A stretch of DNA of 64,000 nucleotides from NCBI GenBank assembly GCA_000733355.1, contig JNVV01000022.1, positions 1 through 64,000 on the forward strand. Reading direction: 5' to 3'. The DNA comes from Falciphora oryzae. Lineage: Eukaryota > Ascomycota > Sordariomycetes > Magnaporthales > Magnaporthaceae. The notes under the pieces were generated by a model. That model was not told the DNA's origin. It worked only from the letters and a program-made list of their open reading frames with translations, and did not search any database. Numbering within the stretch: position 1 is the stretch's first letter; each line of letters opens with the position of its first letter. Below, in pieces: positions 6,718 through 23,459 of this stretch. Position numbers and translations under genes: made by a program.

Positions 6718-9189
6718 ATGCGACTGGCCGCCTCCTGGCACAACCGATTCACGACCACTTGCATCGTCGCCGTCGCTTCTCCCTGCCTCTCCCACACGCC
6801 GCTCCTCCGCCTTCATTCTACGCTCTTCGCGAGGCCGGAACCCACATGCCCAGCGCCGAGCTTCACTATCGGCCCTGCTCGCCCACGATGGCCACCAGGC
6901 CCGCCTCGCCCACAACCAGGGCTGCGCCGTCGAGACTCTGTCCGCGAAGTGTCCTCCCAGGGCCGCATCGTCCCCCCGGACCCCGCTGGCGAGGACACGA
7001 GTGGTTACGGGAAATGGCAGTGGTTGTTGATGGATAGCGCAAGAGCGCTCAAGGAGTCGTCTCCTGTGGGCGCCTCCCTGGAAGGCCGCCTGATAAATCG
7101 CCCGGGAGCCGGCAAAGATCTGGCGCTGTGGGCATGTTTGCTCAACGTCTGCTACAGAACTCACAAAGAGCCCAATACTTCATTTATGCTTGGCGAGCTG
7201 TTCAAACGCCGCCAGCTGTACTATCAAGAAGACCACCCGCTTACTGCCGGCTTCTGGAAAACCGTGCTGGATCTGTCACTCCGGGACGAGAGGCTACTGG
7301 TACAGCTCTGGGTCTACGCCGAATGGATGCGCGTTGCCCATGACGTGAAGTGGCCCCAGCTGTACAACACTGTCATGAGATTTCTCCTAGCCGAGGAGGA
7401 GCTGGACAGAGCGTTTCGCTGGCATGTTCGTCTCGCCGCAAACTTCGGCCACGACAGGGTCGAGTTCATGCAGCTCCTGATGGATTTCTCCATGCATAGC
7501 AACACCAACATGCAGGTCCTTCTGAGGTCCATGTATGTCGCGAGCCCACATCGTGACCTCTACGACACGTTGATCCCTCACATCTGGAATCAGGGCCAAT
7601 CGAATCTTGCCAGGTATTGGAGAAGCGTCTTGGTCCAACACAACGACCGGCCAAAGTCGGGCGAGGCGCGCATGTTCATCAAATACCTCTCAGCCTACTT
7701 CCCGCAGATATACCTACATGAGGAGGAGAAAATGGTCTGCGGTTTAGAGGGAGACATGGCCGGCGACGAGCCCGAGGGGGGAGACATGCGCACCATGATC
7801 AACCGTGTTCACGGCAAGACTTTTGGCATTACCGAAAAGCCATACGACGATTCTCTCGGGGCAAAATGGTTTGCAAGCTCCTGGGTCTCTCTCGACACGG
7901 CCATACACCTAGTCCAGGCTTTGGGAGTGCGAAGCATCGGGCCCTTGTCCCTGCAGTCGATTGCTCTGCGAGAACCGACAGTGGATTCCCTCGCCCGCCG
8001 CCTGGAGCAGCTCCAGAGCCTCAGAATCGGCACGGGCGGTTCACGATATTCGGCGGCCGTCAAGCACTTTACAGCGCAGAGGGATGAGGAAACACTCCGG
8101 GAGCTCGTCACCTCGGACATCCATCCAGAGGTCTACGATGATGCAGTCACCCAGAAGGAGATCCTTGACGCCTCCTCGCGTTCGGGCGACTGGAAGACAT
8201 ACCGCCTCATCTTGTCCGTGAGGTCTGCCGAGGGCCTCGACCATATTGCGCTGGGATTTAACGACCTCATCCTAACCTATCTGCACGGCGGTAGGCGCCA
8301 AATGGTCCTCGCAGTTCTGGCTGAGATGAGCTCCAGGGGCATTCCTATACTCCCGGGTACCAGTCACCTGATCTCCCAGTGTATCATCTATAACACCAAG
8401 GACACTTATGACACGCGCAGAGACCACAACGATTTCTACATCTCCCTCGGCCGTCGGATGATGGAGACCCCTTACCCACTGGCTTGCGATGCCTGGATGC
8501 TGTTGCTACGGTCTCTCGGCCGGCGCTACAAGTTCGACAAGCTGGAGAACCTAGCGATGGAAGTCATTCGCCACTACAGAGAAGCCGACGCCTCCGGCGC
8601 ATACATGATGAACATCCCCACGGCCGACGTTCCGGATGTGTTCTTGTACCAGTACTCGAAGTCCCTGCCCTTCCAGCGGCTGCCGGCCGATCTGCCGCTA
8701 AGTAACCCGAACCACCCGATCCAAGTCATCTTCGACAGGAAATTCCAGACCCGCCACGTCTATCGCACCGTCCGTTTCGTGCTGCTTTACCCTCAGGGGC
8801 TGAACGGCCAGGGCGGCGGGATGGCCTCCTACTCGATCGCGCGCGGCGTCAAGTTCCTGGCCGAGCTCAAGAGGGTCGGGGTCAACGTGAACGATAACAC
8901 GGTCCGGCTTGCCGTCACTGAGAGCCTCGTGGACCTGTTCGGCTACGAGTGGACCCCACGAAAGCGCCATCTCACGATGGCCATGACCCGCAACCGCCTC
9001 CCGCTCCCGCTGGCCAGGGACATGTTCAACCAGGCATGGGGGGCCGAGCTGCTGCCCCCGTTGGAAGAGTTGACAAAGTTGATTGACAGGGCTTCGCTGC
9101 GCCGCCATGCGAGAAGTGAGAAGAAGAGGGAGCTCTTGGAGCAACGCGAGGCTCGGTTCCGTGAGCTAAATGATGTAACGCTTGTATGA
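6718..9189 (+). CDS. mitochondrial PPR-like helical-repeat protein
   Basis: Single long exon, 823 residues from the chosen Met at 6718. This start is preferred over the upstream Met at 6487 because it begins a good mitochondrial presequence: MRLAASWHNRFTTT, then an Arg/Ser/Leu-rich stretch with a RLHSTLFARPE processing-like region and no acidic residue for about 40 residues. The rest is alpha-helical with repeated features such as WVYAEWMRVAHD, FNDLILTYLHGGRRQMVLAVLAEMSSRGI and CDAWMLLLRSLGRRYKFDKLENLAMEV. These look like degenerate pentatricopeptide repeats (two helices, 'AxMxxRGI' ends). Fungal proteins of this type bind organellar transcripts for stability or translation, and that role is inferred here. 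The C-terminus is basic and ends ELNDVTLV. The exact orthologue is not recognised. Confidence 0.75.
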   Translation: MRLAASWHNRFTTTCIVAVASPCLSHTPLLRLHSTLFARPEPTCPAPSFTIGPARPRWPPGPPRPQPGLRRRDSVREVSSQGRIVPPDPAGEDTSGYGKWQWLLMDSARALKESSPVGASLEGRLINRPGAGKDLALWACLLNVCYRTHKEPNTSFMLGELFKRRQLYYQEDHPLTAGFWKTVLDLSLRDERLLVQLWVYAEWMRVAHDVKWPQLYNTVMRFLLAEEELDRAFRWHVRLAANFGHDRVEFMQLLMDFSMHSNTNMQVLLRSMYVASPHRDLYDTLIPHIWNQGQSNLARYWRSVLVQHNDRPKSGEARMFIKYLSAYFPQIYLHEEEKMVCGLEGDMAGDEPEGGDMRTMINRVHGKTFGITEKPYDDSLGAKWFASSWVSLDTAIHLVQALGVRSIGPLSLQSIALREPTVDSLARRLEQLQSLRIGTGGSRYSAAVKHFTAQRDEETLRELVTSDIHPEVYDDAVTQKEILDASSRSGDWKTYRLILSVRSAEGLDHIALGFNDLILTYLHGGRRQMVLAVLAEMSSRGIPILPGTSHLISQCIIYNTKDTYDTRRDHNDFYISLGRRMMETPYPLACDAWMLLLRSLGRRYKFDKLENLAMEVIRHYREADASGAYMMNIPTADVPDVFLYQYSKSLPFQRLPADLPLSNPNHPIQVIFDRKFQTRHVYRTVRFVLLYPQGLNGQGGGMASYSIARGVKFLAELKRVGVNVNDNTVRLAVTESLVDLFGYEWTPRKRHLTMAMTRNRLPLPLARDMFNQAWGAELLPPLEELTKLIDRASLRRHARSEKKRELLEQREARFRELNDVTLV

Positions 9190-19278: not shown

Positions 19279-20241
19279 CTACTCTTTCACCTGCTGGATG
19301 GCATGAACCAGGCGCAGTTCAAAGCCCCGGGGAGAATGGATGCTAAGTCGAAACTCAGGATCAAGGTCCAGCTTCTCGGCGACGCTGCGGACCATGTCAT
19401 ACAGCTTCCCTTCCTCCCCCCTTCCACGTTCGGGATAGGAGAAAACGCCGCGGCCGTCGTCCCATGTAAAGGAGCGAGGCCCGTAGAATGCGTGATTCTT
19501 CAGCTCCCAGGTCCCCGATTCGACGCTGGACGGCTGCGGATCCAGAACCACGTACACAATGTCCACGAACGAATGAGCGGGGTCAATTTCGACAACGACC
19601 GTCTTGCCCTCGTCCCTGAATAGATCGTGGGGCATGGCGATGGCTTTGAGCTGGGAAACGATGTGATAGCTCCTATCCTGCCCATCCCCCTCGGCGGGGT
19701 CGTACCAGGGTTCCCAGGCCGCGTGAACGGCGTTGATCATGACATCTATCGTGGGGATGTAGAGTGCGTCGAGGCGCTGGTCGGCGGGACGCATCAAGGC
19801 CAAGGGCTGGAGTGCCCCGTCGGGATCATTGCCCGCCAGGGGCCGAGGCTCGAGCCTGAAGCCCTCTCTGCCGCGCGCCCATGCGACGACGATACGGCGA
19901 GCCTCGAGGCAGGCATTCAGGAGGGATGTTTCGACAGGAACGTCCTTGCAGAGGCGCGTGGTGAACTCGGTGGTCCAATTCGCTTCCGGGTCCGGACGGT
20001 AGTAGTACTCGTCGAACGGCGAGATTGTGCCGCGAACCCAGGAATGCTCGATGTGGGGGAACAGCGACGGAGTGAAGGCTTCGGGTAACGCCATGCGCCA
20101 AATCTGTTCACGAAGCTCGCATGGTAGCCTGGGGAAAGGGTGAAAGACGGTGTTGGCAGTAGACGCGGATTCCATGGTTGATTTACGATTCGGTTCCGAT
20201 TGTTTGGTGGTTGGTGTTGTTTGGCCGCGACCGTTAGTCAT
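19279..20241 (-). CDS. 2EXR domain-containing protein
   Basis: Single exon, 320 residues. The first 22 residues are polar and unconserved in look, so translation could instead start at the second Met (MESASTANTV, about 20175). The segment FHPFPRLPCELREQIWRMAL is the 2EXR motif (F..LP.ELR..IW..AL) found in a large, expanded family of ascomycete proteins of unknown function. Later features typical of that family are LLNACLEARRIV and the stretch ALYIPTIDVMIN. No transmembrane segment or catalytic motif is visible. These proteins have F-box-like N-terminal sequence, but a ubiquitin-ligase role is not shown. The family is often found in variable genome regions. Confidence 0.8.
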   Translation of the reverse strand: MTNGRGQTTPTTKQSEPNRKSTMESASTANTVFHPFPRLPCELREQIWRMALPEAFTPSLFPHIEHSWVRGTISPFDEYYYRPDPEANWTTEFTTRLCKDVPVETSLLNACLEARRIVVAWARGREGFRLEPRPLAGNDPDGALQPLALMRPADQRLDALYIPTIDVMINAVHAAWEPWYDPAEGDGQDRSYHIVSQLKAIAMPHDLFRDEGKTVVVEIDPAHSFVDIVYVVLDPQPSSVESGTWELKNHAFYGPRSFTWDDGRGVFSYPERGRGEEGKLYDMVRSVAEKLDLDPEFRLSIHSPRGFELRLVHAIQQVKE

Positions 20242-21213
20242 TTATGCACCACCCATTAGATAGTCGAGCGAGGATCGAAAACCAGCCACCCGTCCATTGG
20301 CCACTTCAGCCGGGTGTAACATGGAGATGGATTTACAACCGGTAGCCACTTGAACAAGATGTTAAGGGGAAGTCGAAAGAGAAAAGAAAAATGTTTGGGG
20401 AAATACAGGGAATAAAATTTCGAGAGTAAATCCAAAGAGGTGATGATGTGAGCTAGGGCGGACAGCCCCGAGGAAGGTGATGAGAATATCCAGGTAGTTG
20501 CATACTACCTAGGTACGCTGTTGGTATCGCCGTCATCGCCGTGGAGATCTCGTTCACTGCCCTAGGCATCATTGAATGTTGGAAGGACTGATAGCATCCG
20601 CAGGACATAACCGTGCCGTGATTCGAAGTGCGGTCGCGACTGGAGTAACAGGTACCTACCTCAACTGTTGCGAATGTGTGAAAACAGTTGGCTGTGGCCT
20701 AGGCTAGGGGGGAAAAAGAGGAAAAAGAAGGTGAGCACCTAGGCATTTGTGGTGTCGCAGCTTGCTAGGAGATGAACCGTCATCGTGCAAAATACTAAAA
20801 GAAGAGCACAGGTGATGGGGAGTGAATAGGGGCTTCTTTGGCTGACTACAGCCTCTGCCACTAGGCGCCTGGATCGAGTCCACCCCAAAGCATCCAGCCT
20901 TGGGACTGGTTGCAGGTGTTTGTAGGTACGTCGAGCCCCTATGTGGGGAGGTGCGTTGGAAGCAAGCGGGCAGCGCAGGCAACGGCGCGTCCCGTCTGAC
21001 TATGTCCAGGCGGCCGTGATGATTTGATTTTCTCTTTTTCCCTTCTTTTTTTGCTCGGCACCACCAAGACCATCCCCGCACGTATGCCCGTGCCCCTTGC
21101 TCGCCACCCCCAGCGGGCTGCCTTTGGCCCCTTTTCATATGTCTCCTATGCCAAGTGAACAAGTTTGCTTTGTGCTGGTTGAATTTAGCTGATAGGACGA
21201 CTATTCAACCTAG
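20242..21213. other. intergenic, A/T-richer, no gene resolved
   Basis: 5' flank of the 2EXR gene and upstream part of the microexon region. Several pieces carry an acceptor-like CTGAC..CAG (for example near 21000-21010) without a matching donor. They may be decayed exons, but none is supported on its own. Confidence 0.35.
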
Positions 21214-23023
21214 AAATCCATACTGCCAGAAGCCATACGTTTCCCCCAGGCCAATCCATCCCCCCTTCTGCATCAATTTCCCGACTCCCTCTCATTTGGA
21301 TACATGGAGAGACAGCTAACATGATGTTCCCCAAGCTAGACCACACATCAAAGCAAGTACGTATGCCTTCGACCTCTAGGTCCCTCCCGGACACCAGACT
21401 CGATCCCAGATCCCACACCGGCTAACAGGCCTCGCCGCAGACCCCAGACTCGCTCCCTAGACTCGCTCCACAGATCCCTGAATCACACCGCACATCCTAA
21501 ACTTGCTCCCCTGGCCCCAGACTCCGTCCCAGACCCCAGACTTTTTCCGCACACCCCAGATTTGCTCCGCAGCCCCGGGCTCTTCCAAATACCTACCGAT
21601 CGATCCCATAAAACCAGTCCATGCTATACATTGCAACAGCATGTCCTCCAGTGACTTGCGCTGCAACGGCAGACCCGAGAACAAGCCCAAGCCCAACACA
21701 AGGTTCCTACGCAATATCATTCGCACGACCGAGAATGCTAACCTAAACGTTTAGACTACCAAACCAACCATTGCCGTACGTTTTATCCGCAGACTTGGTG
21801 TCTATCCCGATCCATTTCCTCTTTCGGTCCTCGACATTTACAAAAAGTCTTGTTTGGCTCGCAGATAATGCCTTGCAGAGTTTGTACTTCCTCCCTGCAC
21901 CCCAATACCCCCTTTTTTGCCATCACAAGGCACAGTAGCTAACGAACTGCGCAAAAGACCAAATCCTACGTAAGAGCCCATCCCTGTGGAGGTTGGTGGC
22001 TACGTGAACCACTCATTGCTAACACAATCGTACAGAAACAGAAGCGCAACGTAACCAACTCAAACACTTCCTTCATCCTCCCCTGTTTTGGTTTCCCGGA
22101 GTTGGAACTAACAAAGGAGCAACGCGTCCATGCTTCTAGGAGAGGAACAAGGAGGTGGATCGGACGTGCGCATTTCAAAGTGCGATATATGCTAACATTT
22201 GTCGTATGGCAGTGGGTAGATTAGAAGATTGCTGTATGTTGTGCCCCAGTCCCCGTCAAATTTATTCACAAGCACCTAGTAGCTAACCTTGCTTTCGAGG
22301 ATCTCGAAAAAGACCGGGAGGTAAACAGCCAGCTTCCTATGGTTTTATCCCTAGCTCGAGAGTTAAATGCTTACATGTTTGATAGCACGCAGCCGCGGTG
22401 GTCAGGGCAAGTCTCCAATCAACAAAATCGGACATGATCGAAACTGGCGACGGCTAACCGTGCTTGTATCGAAACAGGAGCACCAGGCCATGATGGCTGT
22501 GAGTTTCCCAGCTTGACCTTGATCCTTGTACTGGTAGCTAACCGGTATCTAGAACTTCGCCGGAGAGATTGCTGTATGTTCATTTTTGGTGCTGGAATTG
22601 AGCCCATAAGTGGATGCTAGTGTTTACACTGCCACTAGCGGTATAAGGAGGTATCGAATGTAAGCAACCATAACACAATATGCATTTCCAATACGCCGAC
22701 ATTGACATGATAATATAGCGCCTCGCCGAAGAGGTGGAGGAGCGGCGTGCCGAGCGCGAGGTAAGTTTTTACCAGGATTCCCATGCAGCTTCTTGTATGT
22801 ACTAACTTCCGGAATAGGAGCCATGATCGCAGCCGAGGCCATCGTTGCAAGTGGATAAAAGGGCTTCAGGTGGGCGTATTAGGGCTGACGGGAAAATATA
22901 GGCCGCGAGGCGGAAAAGAGAGGAGGAGGAGAGGGAGAGGAGGAGAGGGAAAGGAAGAGGGTGAAGGAGAAGAAAGAGGAGGAAAAGGGTGAGAAGAAGA
23001 TCAAGGAGGGGAAGGAGGAGTAG
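21214..23023 (+). other. array of 21-nt symmetric microexons, gene or decayed gene of unknown family
   Basis: Candidate exons with AG before them and a GT/GC donor after: 21336-21356 (LDHTSKQ), 21755-21775 (TTKPTIA), 21865-21883 (19 nt), 21958-21969 (TKSY), 22036-22050 (KQKRN), 22140-22154 (ERNKE, weak donor GTGGAT), 22213-22233 (21 nt, in-frame TAG), 22300-22320 (DLEKDRE), 22386-22406 (HAAAVVR, GC donor), 22478-22498 (EHQAMMA), 22553-22573 (NFAGEIA), 22639-22659 (RYKEVSN), 22719-22760 (42 nt, RLAEEVEERRAERE), 22818-22846 (29 nt) and 22902 onward. A block at 21214-21234 is 21 nt but followed by ATACGT. From 21958 onward introns are 54-86 nt, many with CTAAC. From 22300 to 22760 the frame is open (56 codons) with every junction in phase 0. 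The terminal exon reads to TGA 22962-22964 in that phase, or to TAG 23021-23023 in the frame resembling the 17 kb gene. No start codon is identified. Confidence 0.5.
21381..21595 (+). repeat. degenerate CCCAGACTC-type repeat inside the microexon region
   Basis: The sequence returns repeatedly to CCCAGACTCG/CCGTCCC/CTCC-like words (CACCAGACTCGATCCCAG, ACCCCAGACTCGCTCC, CTAGACTCGCTCCACAG, CCCCAGACTCCGTCCCAG, ACCCCAGACTTTTTCCG, ACCCCAGATTTGCTCCG). Units are about 14-25 bases and imperfect. It could be an expanded 3'-splice-site/exon-start unit of the surrounding array, which is inference. Confidence 0.6.
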
Positions 23024-23459
23024 AAGAAGAAGGAACCCCAGCATCCGCTCGCCAATCAACCGTCATTCTAAGGAAATCACTAAGAACAGTGAACTTATGC
23101 ATGAATGTTCTGCTGCCCATCAGTCGAGCCCGACTTCAGGGGCTACCCATTGTGGGATTTGCGGCCTGGAATCTGAGGCCGAAAGTGTCAGATGCCCCAC
23201 CATCAACCAATCCCCACTGTGGACCAAGACGGCCAACGCAAGTGCTCGATGTGTCCCTGAATTCGGTGCCATGCGCGGTCTGGGACTTGCCAGGGGAGAA
23301 GAGCTGGGCATAGCGAATATCAGACAGCCAGCAACCACATGCACCACCGCCCCAATCCGGCCTCTGCGAACTCCCGACCGCGTCCCTCGAACTCCCCTCG
23401 AAGCCTGGCCCGAGTTCTCTAGACGGCCCCTCCGCGGGCCTCCCAGTCGGTGTGCCAGA
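23024..23459. promoter_or_regulatory. 5' flank/leader of the AP-1 gamma gene
   Basis: No exon is supported. The region becomes G/C-richer toward the AP-1 gamma start and presumably carries its promoter and leader. It directly abuts the purine-rich end of the microexon array. Confidence 0.4.

Follow-up and report, generated by a model that had tools for sequence, protein, structure and literature searches.

What could be encoded by a succession of blocks, most of them exactly 21 nt long, that are flanked on both sides by splice-like sites? This question is raised by a 64,000-nucleotide stretch of the Falciphora oryzae genome (contig JNVV01000022.1, positions 1 to 64,000, forward strand; hereafter, the window), in which the original prediction had placed seven such blocks. 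Their coordinates, lengths, AG and GT ends and peptides were all reproduced, as was the presence of a single GC donor, at 22407. The array lies on the plus strand and opens with a 21-nt block that carries an in-frame TAG (22213–22233, WVD*KIA), the likely counterpart of an open exon, WTEGEFA, in a second gene termed L009. It continues with 21-nt heptad exons encoding DLEKDRE (22300–22320; weak GAG acceptor), HAAAVVR (22386–22406; donor GCAAGT), EHQAMMA (22478–22498; counterparts EYADRMA in L009 and EFCRQMA in a third locus, L034), NFAGEIA (22553–22573) and RYKEVSN (22639–22659), and with a 42-nt exon that encodes the two heptads RLAEEVE and ERRAERE (22719–22760); the last five are placed by both the frame-blind scan described below and the gene models. 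The introns between the seven blocks measure 66, 65, 71, 54, 65 and 59 nt, in agreement with the predicted range of 54–71 nt, and the expected CTAAC or similar word is present as exact CTAAC in four of the seven introns that precede blocks, the rest reading CTTAC, TTTAC and TTGAC.

The array forms the 3′ part of a longer gene, with additional likely exons on both sides, four upstream and one downstream. Upstream lie the start exon (21865–21879; ATG at 21868, MPCR, donor GTTTGT), which was placed by alignment across the ATG with the L009 and L034 start exons, and coding exons of 12 nt (21958–21969, TKSY; CTAAC, AAG acceptor, GTAAGA donor), 15 nt (22036–22050, KQKRN; CTAAC, CAG acceptor, GTAACC donor) and 15 nt (22140–22154, ERNKE), the last of which has a weak donor, GTGGAT, and is the least certain coding exon. 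Downstream, a terminal coding exon (22818–22826) encodes EP followed by a TGA stop and is preceded by the strongest intron of the array (15.9). The coding introns of this gene are 54–89 nt long, with GT donors in 10 of 11 and GC in the remaining one. The probable 5′ leader begins with a CT-rich tract and a first untranslated exon (21015–21081, the 3′ end being uncertain by a few bases), a region that is recognized by its alignment with the leader of the third gene and probably acts as promoter or leader. A probable second untranslated exon of 21 nt (21755–21775), with the splice-like ends tag and gtacgt and a CTAAC at 21738, has likely counterparts of 21 nt in L009 (6397–6417) and 19 nt in L034. 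The 5′ half of the window gene and the frame of the TAG exon are less certain than the array itself, because in each of the three genes an automatic frame-tracking model followed a different route: in the window, it used another frame for the TAG exon, spliced this exon to one of 41 nt (22280–22320) and met no stop, and in the L009 gene and the third gene it chose longer exons (7952–7983, 1808–1865 and 2019–2059).

The original prediction considered so long a run of equal exons to be very unlikely by chance, and as a statement about length alone this did not hold. When only AG, 21 bases and GT were required, with introns of 45–110 nt, the longest chain in the window comprised five blocks, and chains of at least five occurred in 9 of 50 Markov shuffles of the window. 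A frame-blind chain score was also computed from the donor, branch point and acceptor, using splice-site frequencies that were hand-set from recall and untrained, and using neither the reading frame nor the length of 21. By this measure, the window array scored 26.8 versus at most 9.2 in 15 shuffles of the 64-kb window, and it was the top chain of the 64 kb, the runner-up on either strand reaching 9.3; scored in this way, the array is far outside chance. Owing to the weak GAG acceptor of the second block, the scan assigned this block 41 nt in place of 21; it also appended an extra intron past the array end.

The same scan was extended to 19 further 10-kb pieces of the genome (190 kb) and 3.1 kb of contig C47. 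A second array was found in one of these pieces (L009, C22:114001–124000), about 99 kb from the first; with a score of 42.6, it is stronger than the window array, and the next-best chain in those 190 kb of other DNA reached 12.2. Its frame-blind chain comprises exons of 21, 21, 9, 21, 21, 25, 21, 32, 42 and 15 nt. The L009 gene model is free of stops up to its last exon, which is long; in this model, one exon is placed 7 bases off its proper site (7172–7186), two more candidate exons between 6779 and 7069 are omitted, and the ends of the RLQKDME exon were set by eye. Five more genome pieces contained no array, so that, of the 50.2 Mb genome, the chain scan covered about 304 kb on both strands, made up of the window and 24 pieces. 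Among candidate exons of 6–60 nt with good flanking introns in these 304 kb, both strands included and overlapping alternatives counted separately, a length of exactly 21 nt was found for 7 of 19 in the window and L009 arrays versus 1 of 60 outside them (Fisher p 0.0001). The in-between exons of the two frame-blind chains are multiples of three in 13 of 17 cases and exactly 21 nt in 9 of 17. For the chosen models of all three genes, the proportion of internal coding exons that are multiples of three rises to 33 of 33, partly through selection, because some exon ends were set by eye and one exon listing admitted multiples of three only.

The third gene was reached through a motif built from EHQAMMA and EYADRMA, the window and L009 exons, which are alike at both ends. 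This motif had three matches in the whole genome and none when reversed, and the third match, EFCRQMA on contig C26, lies within another series of 21-nt exons. This C26 gene, which is on the minus strand of L034, reads EFCRQMA, LHHERLAA (24 nt), KHARRIA, FYEMKKE, ELEVQIL, EAANEAA and RCRLQRQ before ending in a long acidic exon. The scorer did not list the FYEMKKE exon, which was placed by eye; likewise by eye, the 24-nt LHHERLAA exon was counted as a heptad unit through its first 21 nt. One intron is 229 nt long; the model is open to its last exon and ends at GAG-TAA, which is overlapped by the donor GTAAGT. Alone, the C26 array is not distinguished from background by the frame-blind scan, in which the locus gave 13.5 for another intron pair and 10.1 for part of the array versus a background of up to 12.2. 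Since the genome holds a stronger second array, and since the shared exon motif led to a third one built alike, the existence of a multi-microexon gene with phase-0 21-nt exons is well supported. Motif searches established no further member: three exon-motif searches of the genome returned only the known genes and two single matches, one on C10 (C10:829053–829082) and one on C4 with no array within the surrounding 3 kb, and searches with leader and start motifs returned known members only. A looser exon motif gave 40 matches, four of them in known genes, versus 72 for its reversed control and is thus mostly background; four further matches to it, picked for splice-like donors, contained no array.

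A link between the three genes is also provided by their 5′ ends. In the models, each begins with M-x-x-x followed by a GTT donor: MPCR in the window (ATG-CCT-TGC-AGA, GTTTGT), MADR in L009 (ATG-GCC-GAC-AGG, GTTAGT) and MPSD on C26 (ATG-CCG-TCG-GAC, GTTCGT). Locally, the window and L009 genes align best at a single place, 21818–21920 versus 6469–6569 of L009. When 125-nt stretches of the start regions were aligned, none of 500 shuffles was as good for window and L009, and 2 of 500 were as good for window and C26, aligned across the ATG; for L009 and C26, for which the aligned part lies upstream of the ATG, 14 of 500 were as good. Because the start regions align across genes at this ATG, translation of the window gene most likely starts at 21868, with its coding part predicted to run to 22826. 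For the leaders, the window and C26 copies can be aligned around a CT-rich tract and a donor (window 21015–21136), with a score of 58 versus a best of 28 in 200 shuffles. The remaining alignments stayed within their shuffle ranges: 27 versus up to 29 for the window and L009 leaders, 27 versus up to 28 for the C26 and L009 leaders, and 28 versus up to 29 for the whole C26 and L009 genes. An ATG in the CT-rich C26 leader opens, in an alternative C26 model, a hydrophobic start of 20 residues; this candidate signal peptide was not accepted, since at the corresponding place the aligned leader of the window gene runs ATG-ATT-TGA and the start common to the genes is located further downstream. Taken as a family, the three loci probably represent at least three genes in the genome, one relative of the window gene being clear and one probable, that have a common build and start and share little other sequence.

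The peptides of the short exons follow a common pattern. In 22 seven-residue units from the three genes, I, L, V, M, F, Y or W occupies positions 2 and 6 in 26 of 44 cases versus 14 of 110 elsewhere; when the best of all registers was taken, none of 20,000 within-peptide shuffles reached 26 (maximum 22). As some units had been set by eye, the test was repeated on smaller sets, giving 17 of 30 for 15 units with scorer-listed ends (0 of 20,000 shuffles) and 11 of 18 for the 9 units of the frame-blind scan (61 of 20,000 shuffles). Positions 2 and 6 were best in all three sets, and their spacing of 4 and 3 is that of the a and d positions of coiled coils. Taken gene by gene, a period of 3.5 residues was found in the window gene (p 0.0002) and in the L009 gene (0 of 5,000 shuffles) and was not significant in the C26 gene (p 0.53), so that the coiled-coil pattern of core residues is present in the pooled units and in the window and L009 genes and is not significant for C26 alone. 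Stops occur in 1 of the 22 units in frame 0 versus 4 in frame 1 and 4 in frame 2. Because hydrophobic residues recur at positions 2 and 6, each 21-nt exon may be read as one coiled-coil heptad in a fixed register.

Similarity searches returned no relatives of these peptides. Nothing above the Pfam cut-off was found for the window peptide or its two relatives, plasmid records gave no match, and the window peptide yielded only weak matches in the PDB (best E 0.15). A database of 5.8 billion proteins, fungal ones included, was searched with the window and L009 sequences: no protein shared three words with the window peptide chain (84 aa; candidates of 46–147 aa), and none of six candidates for the L009 core (150 aa; candidates of about 83–262 aa) reached an E value of 1 or better. 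At that sensitivity and length there are thus no protein relatives, or such relatives are unannotated.

These results can be brought together in one reading, which we hold to be probable: the array is the coding part, from 21868 to 22826, of a small plus-strand multi-microexon gene for a coiled-coil protein and belongs to a very divergent family. The splice-like ends, the second array, the heptad pattern and the TAG are directly visible in the DNA; from the sequence we infer that the exons are spliced and translated, that a coil is formed and that exons can be skipped. Under this reading, the exons would be assembled by intron-defined splicing, each 21-nt exon would contribute one heptad in the same register and the 42-nt exon two, and the product would most likely be a short coiled-coil protein for self-association or partner binding. 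The earlier proposal that any 21-nt exon could be skipped without a frameshift is upheld, as these are phase-0 exons of whole codons, and it can be widened: skipping any of them would remove one heptad with both the frame and the coiled-coil register undisturbed. Alternative splicing of the array is possible at the level of sequence, and with it the proposed range of protein lengths from one locus. A stronger version, in which the family in this fungal lineage retains one heptad per 21-nt exon to let splicing add or remove single heptads and thus set coil length or partner choice, and in which inclusion of the TAG exon serves as regulated, poison-exon shut-down of the coil, seems rather unlikely.

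A challenge to this reading is the TAG of the first heptad exon, a stop that was implicit in the original prediction, which gave this block as the only one not open in phase 0 and did not follow it up. Block 22213–22233 has the TAG in frame 0, a stop in frame 1 and an open frame 2, and the latter would form a TGA with the next block. WTEGEFA of L009 and WVD*KIA of the window both begin with TGG, end with GCN and lead the heptad run, and the L009 copy is open. Because of its TAG, the downstream coil cannot be made if this exon is included in frame 0, and inclusion would be the normal outcome since the flanking splice sites are good. The window copy would thus make the coil only when the TAG exon is skipped, or it is decaying; alternatively, the exon is read in another frame, or the TAG is an assembly error. 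That the family is real and the window copy a decaying pseudogene, in which translation stops about 21 residues in and the downstream part is not produced, is a serious possibility, though one we place somewhat short of even. It would account for a frame-0 TAG between good splice sites while 21 of the 22 units of the three genes are open in frame 0, but the six heptad-sized or double exons that follow contain no stop before the terminal exon, the donors are kept (GT at 10 of 11 coding introns and GC at the other), and the TAG may itself be a sequencing error. A comparable but slightly lower weight is given to an origin of the exons as tandem copies of a single unit of one exon and one intron, a history like that of collagen genes, with the 21-nt length a functionless relic. 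Equal length, phase and register are the expected outcome of such a process, and two of six within-gene comparisons exceeded all 40 of their shuffles, the L034 exons (203 versus at most 196) and the L009 intron interiors (301 versus at most 297); the other four (window exons, window introns, L009 exons and L034 introns) stayed within the shuffle range, so that recent duplication is unlikely and any duplication is old, or there was none.

A spliced RNA that is non-coding, or an extended 5′ leader, could also account for the array, its exon size then being set by something other than protein. This is decidedly unlikely. The length of 21 nt is not confined to coding exons, because two of the three genes have an exon of this length in the leader (21755–21775 in the window and 6397–6417 in L009), and the TAG in the first heptad exon fits as well, but a hydrophobic heptad pattern in frame 0, a G+C content of 0.66/0.36/0.71 at codon positions 1/2/3 and the models of two relatives, which stay open over long stretches, all argue for coding, and Rfam had no match in the window at gathering scores. 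A chance run of splice-like motifs picked out by eye is the least probable explanation and very improbable in absolute terms. Bare AG-N21-GT chains of five or more arise in 9 of 50 shuffles and the C26 array alone falls within the background of the scored scan, but chance would have to produce the scored chains of both the window and L009 together with the shared exon motif, the start alignments and the heptad pattern.

The surroundings of the three genes are of separate interest. The window array is flanked upstream by a gene of the 2EXR family (Pfam; 19279–20241, opposite strand) and downstream by an adaptin gene, which we take to be that of AP-1 gamma; a 2EXR look-alike was read by eye near the C26 locus (L040, about 1000–2000). 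Imperfect short tandem repeats with units of 13 and 20 nt (CCCCAGACT...) are present in the leader at 21442–21571, and directly 3′ of the gene lies a GA-rich tract that contains imperfect 20-nt and 27-nt repeats (22916–23034); by eye, its composition resembles that of the acidic last exon of the C26 gene. The leader also contains, on the plus strand, a fragment (21632–21736) that matches, as an 89% copy, an exon from contig C47; this exon belongs to a conserved gene that databases list as “Pre-mRNA-splicing factor 38B”. Over 22 codons (21671–21736), the two differ at three sites, all silent, and the fragment lies within a 37-codon ORF that opens at its own ATG (21641). The first 125 residues encoded by the C47 gene are 78% identical to a Gaeumannomyces hyphopodioides protein and 67–70% identical to Pyricularia proteins, on which basis the genome would lie close to Gaeumannomyces within the Magnaporthales. 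Two more copies of the region upstream of this gene occur 7 kb apart on C26 (L034 2703–2956 and C26:495918–496123); one of them lies just behind the third array gene and points away from it, and no array was present in 2.5 kb on the upstream side of the copy at C26:495918–496123. Descent of the array family from the C47 gene, suggested by fragments in the window leader and beside the C26 gene, is not claimed, given that the fragment on C26 is oriented away from the array gene. In L011 (C47:100001–110000), several long internal repeats of about 77–91% identity were noted a short distance apart.

Several known systems resemble this gene in part. In fibrillar collagen genes, 54-bp exons encode Gly-X-Y repeats and exon length is locked to the protein repeat; the tie between exon length and repeat is alike, with a 54-bp Gly-X-Y unit there versus a 21-nt heptad here. 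The coding sequence of schistosome micro-exon genes consists largely of short exons whose skipping, given lengths divisible by three, leaves the frame intact. Most coding sequence of the present family likewise lies in short multiple-of-three exons skippable in frame, the last exon being long in L009 and C26; the similarity is one of build only, and the schistosome genes belong to a different kingdom, whereas here the exons are mostly of one length, 21 nt, that matches a structural repeat. Schistosomes, and short exons of 36 bp or less, are mentioned in the excerpted text of a 2024 paper (PMC11121469), according to which no functional microexon had previously been described in filamentous fungi; its example, Xlr2 of Trichoderma virens, a Zn(II)2Cys6 transcription factor with a switch-like microexon, is alike in being from a filamentous ascomycete and unlike in that, as presented there, the microexon is single and forms no array. 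Fungal microexons of 2–10 codons, with introns of 45–55 bp, occur in the P450 genes of Phanerochaete chrysosporium (PMC1184071), but these are scattered in ordinary enzyme genes, and the excerpted text of that paper mentions no fixed length or register. Nearest in spirit among the known systems are the bicycle genes of aphids, which, in the excerpts of their description, have many small internal exons, almost all in phase 2, encode CYC motifs and N-terminal signal sequences, and diverge so fast that relatives are told by gene structure and not by sequence (PMC9168663). Many small one-phase internal exons are likewise found in the window family, but the phase that gives the heptad pattern is 0 instead of 2, the exons match coiled-coil heptads, and neither CYC motifs nor a signal sequence was seen by eye in the three model proteins, whose start exons are polar. 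Among titles and abstract openings, with few subscription papers covered, no fungal microexon array or gene with one heptad per exon was found.

If the array is spliced as read, it would define a gene family in a filamentous fungus in which exon boundaries are locked to a structural repeat of the protein and whose members are known by their gene structure, their sequences having diverged nearly beyond alignment. Such genes would probably escape standard fungal annotation, as may be judged from the failure to find any relative in a large protein database that includes fungal proteins. The family would offer a compact eukaryote in which to study how runs of 9–21 nt exons are faithfully spliced and whether splicing tunes coil length.
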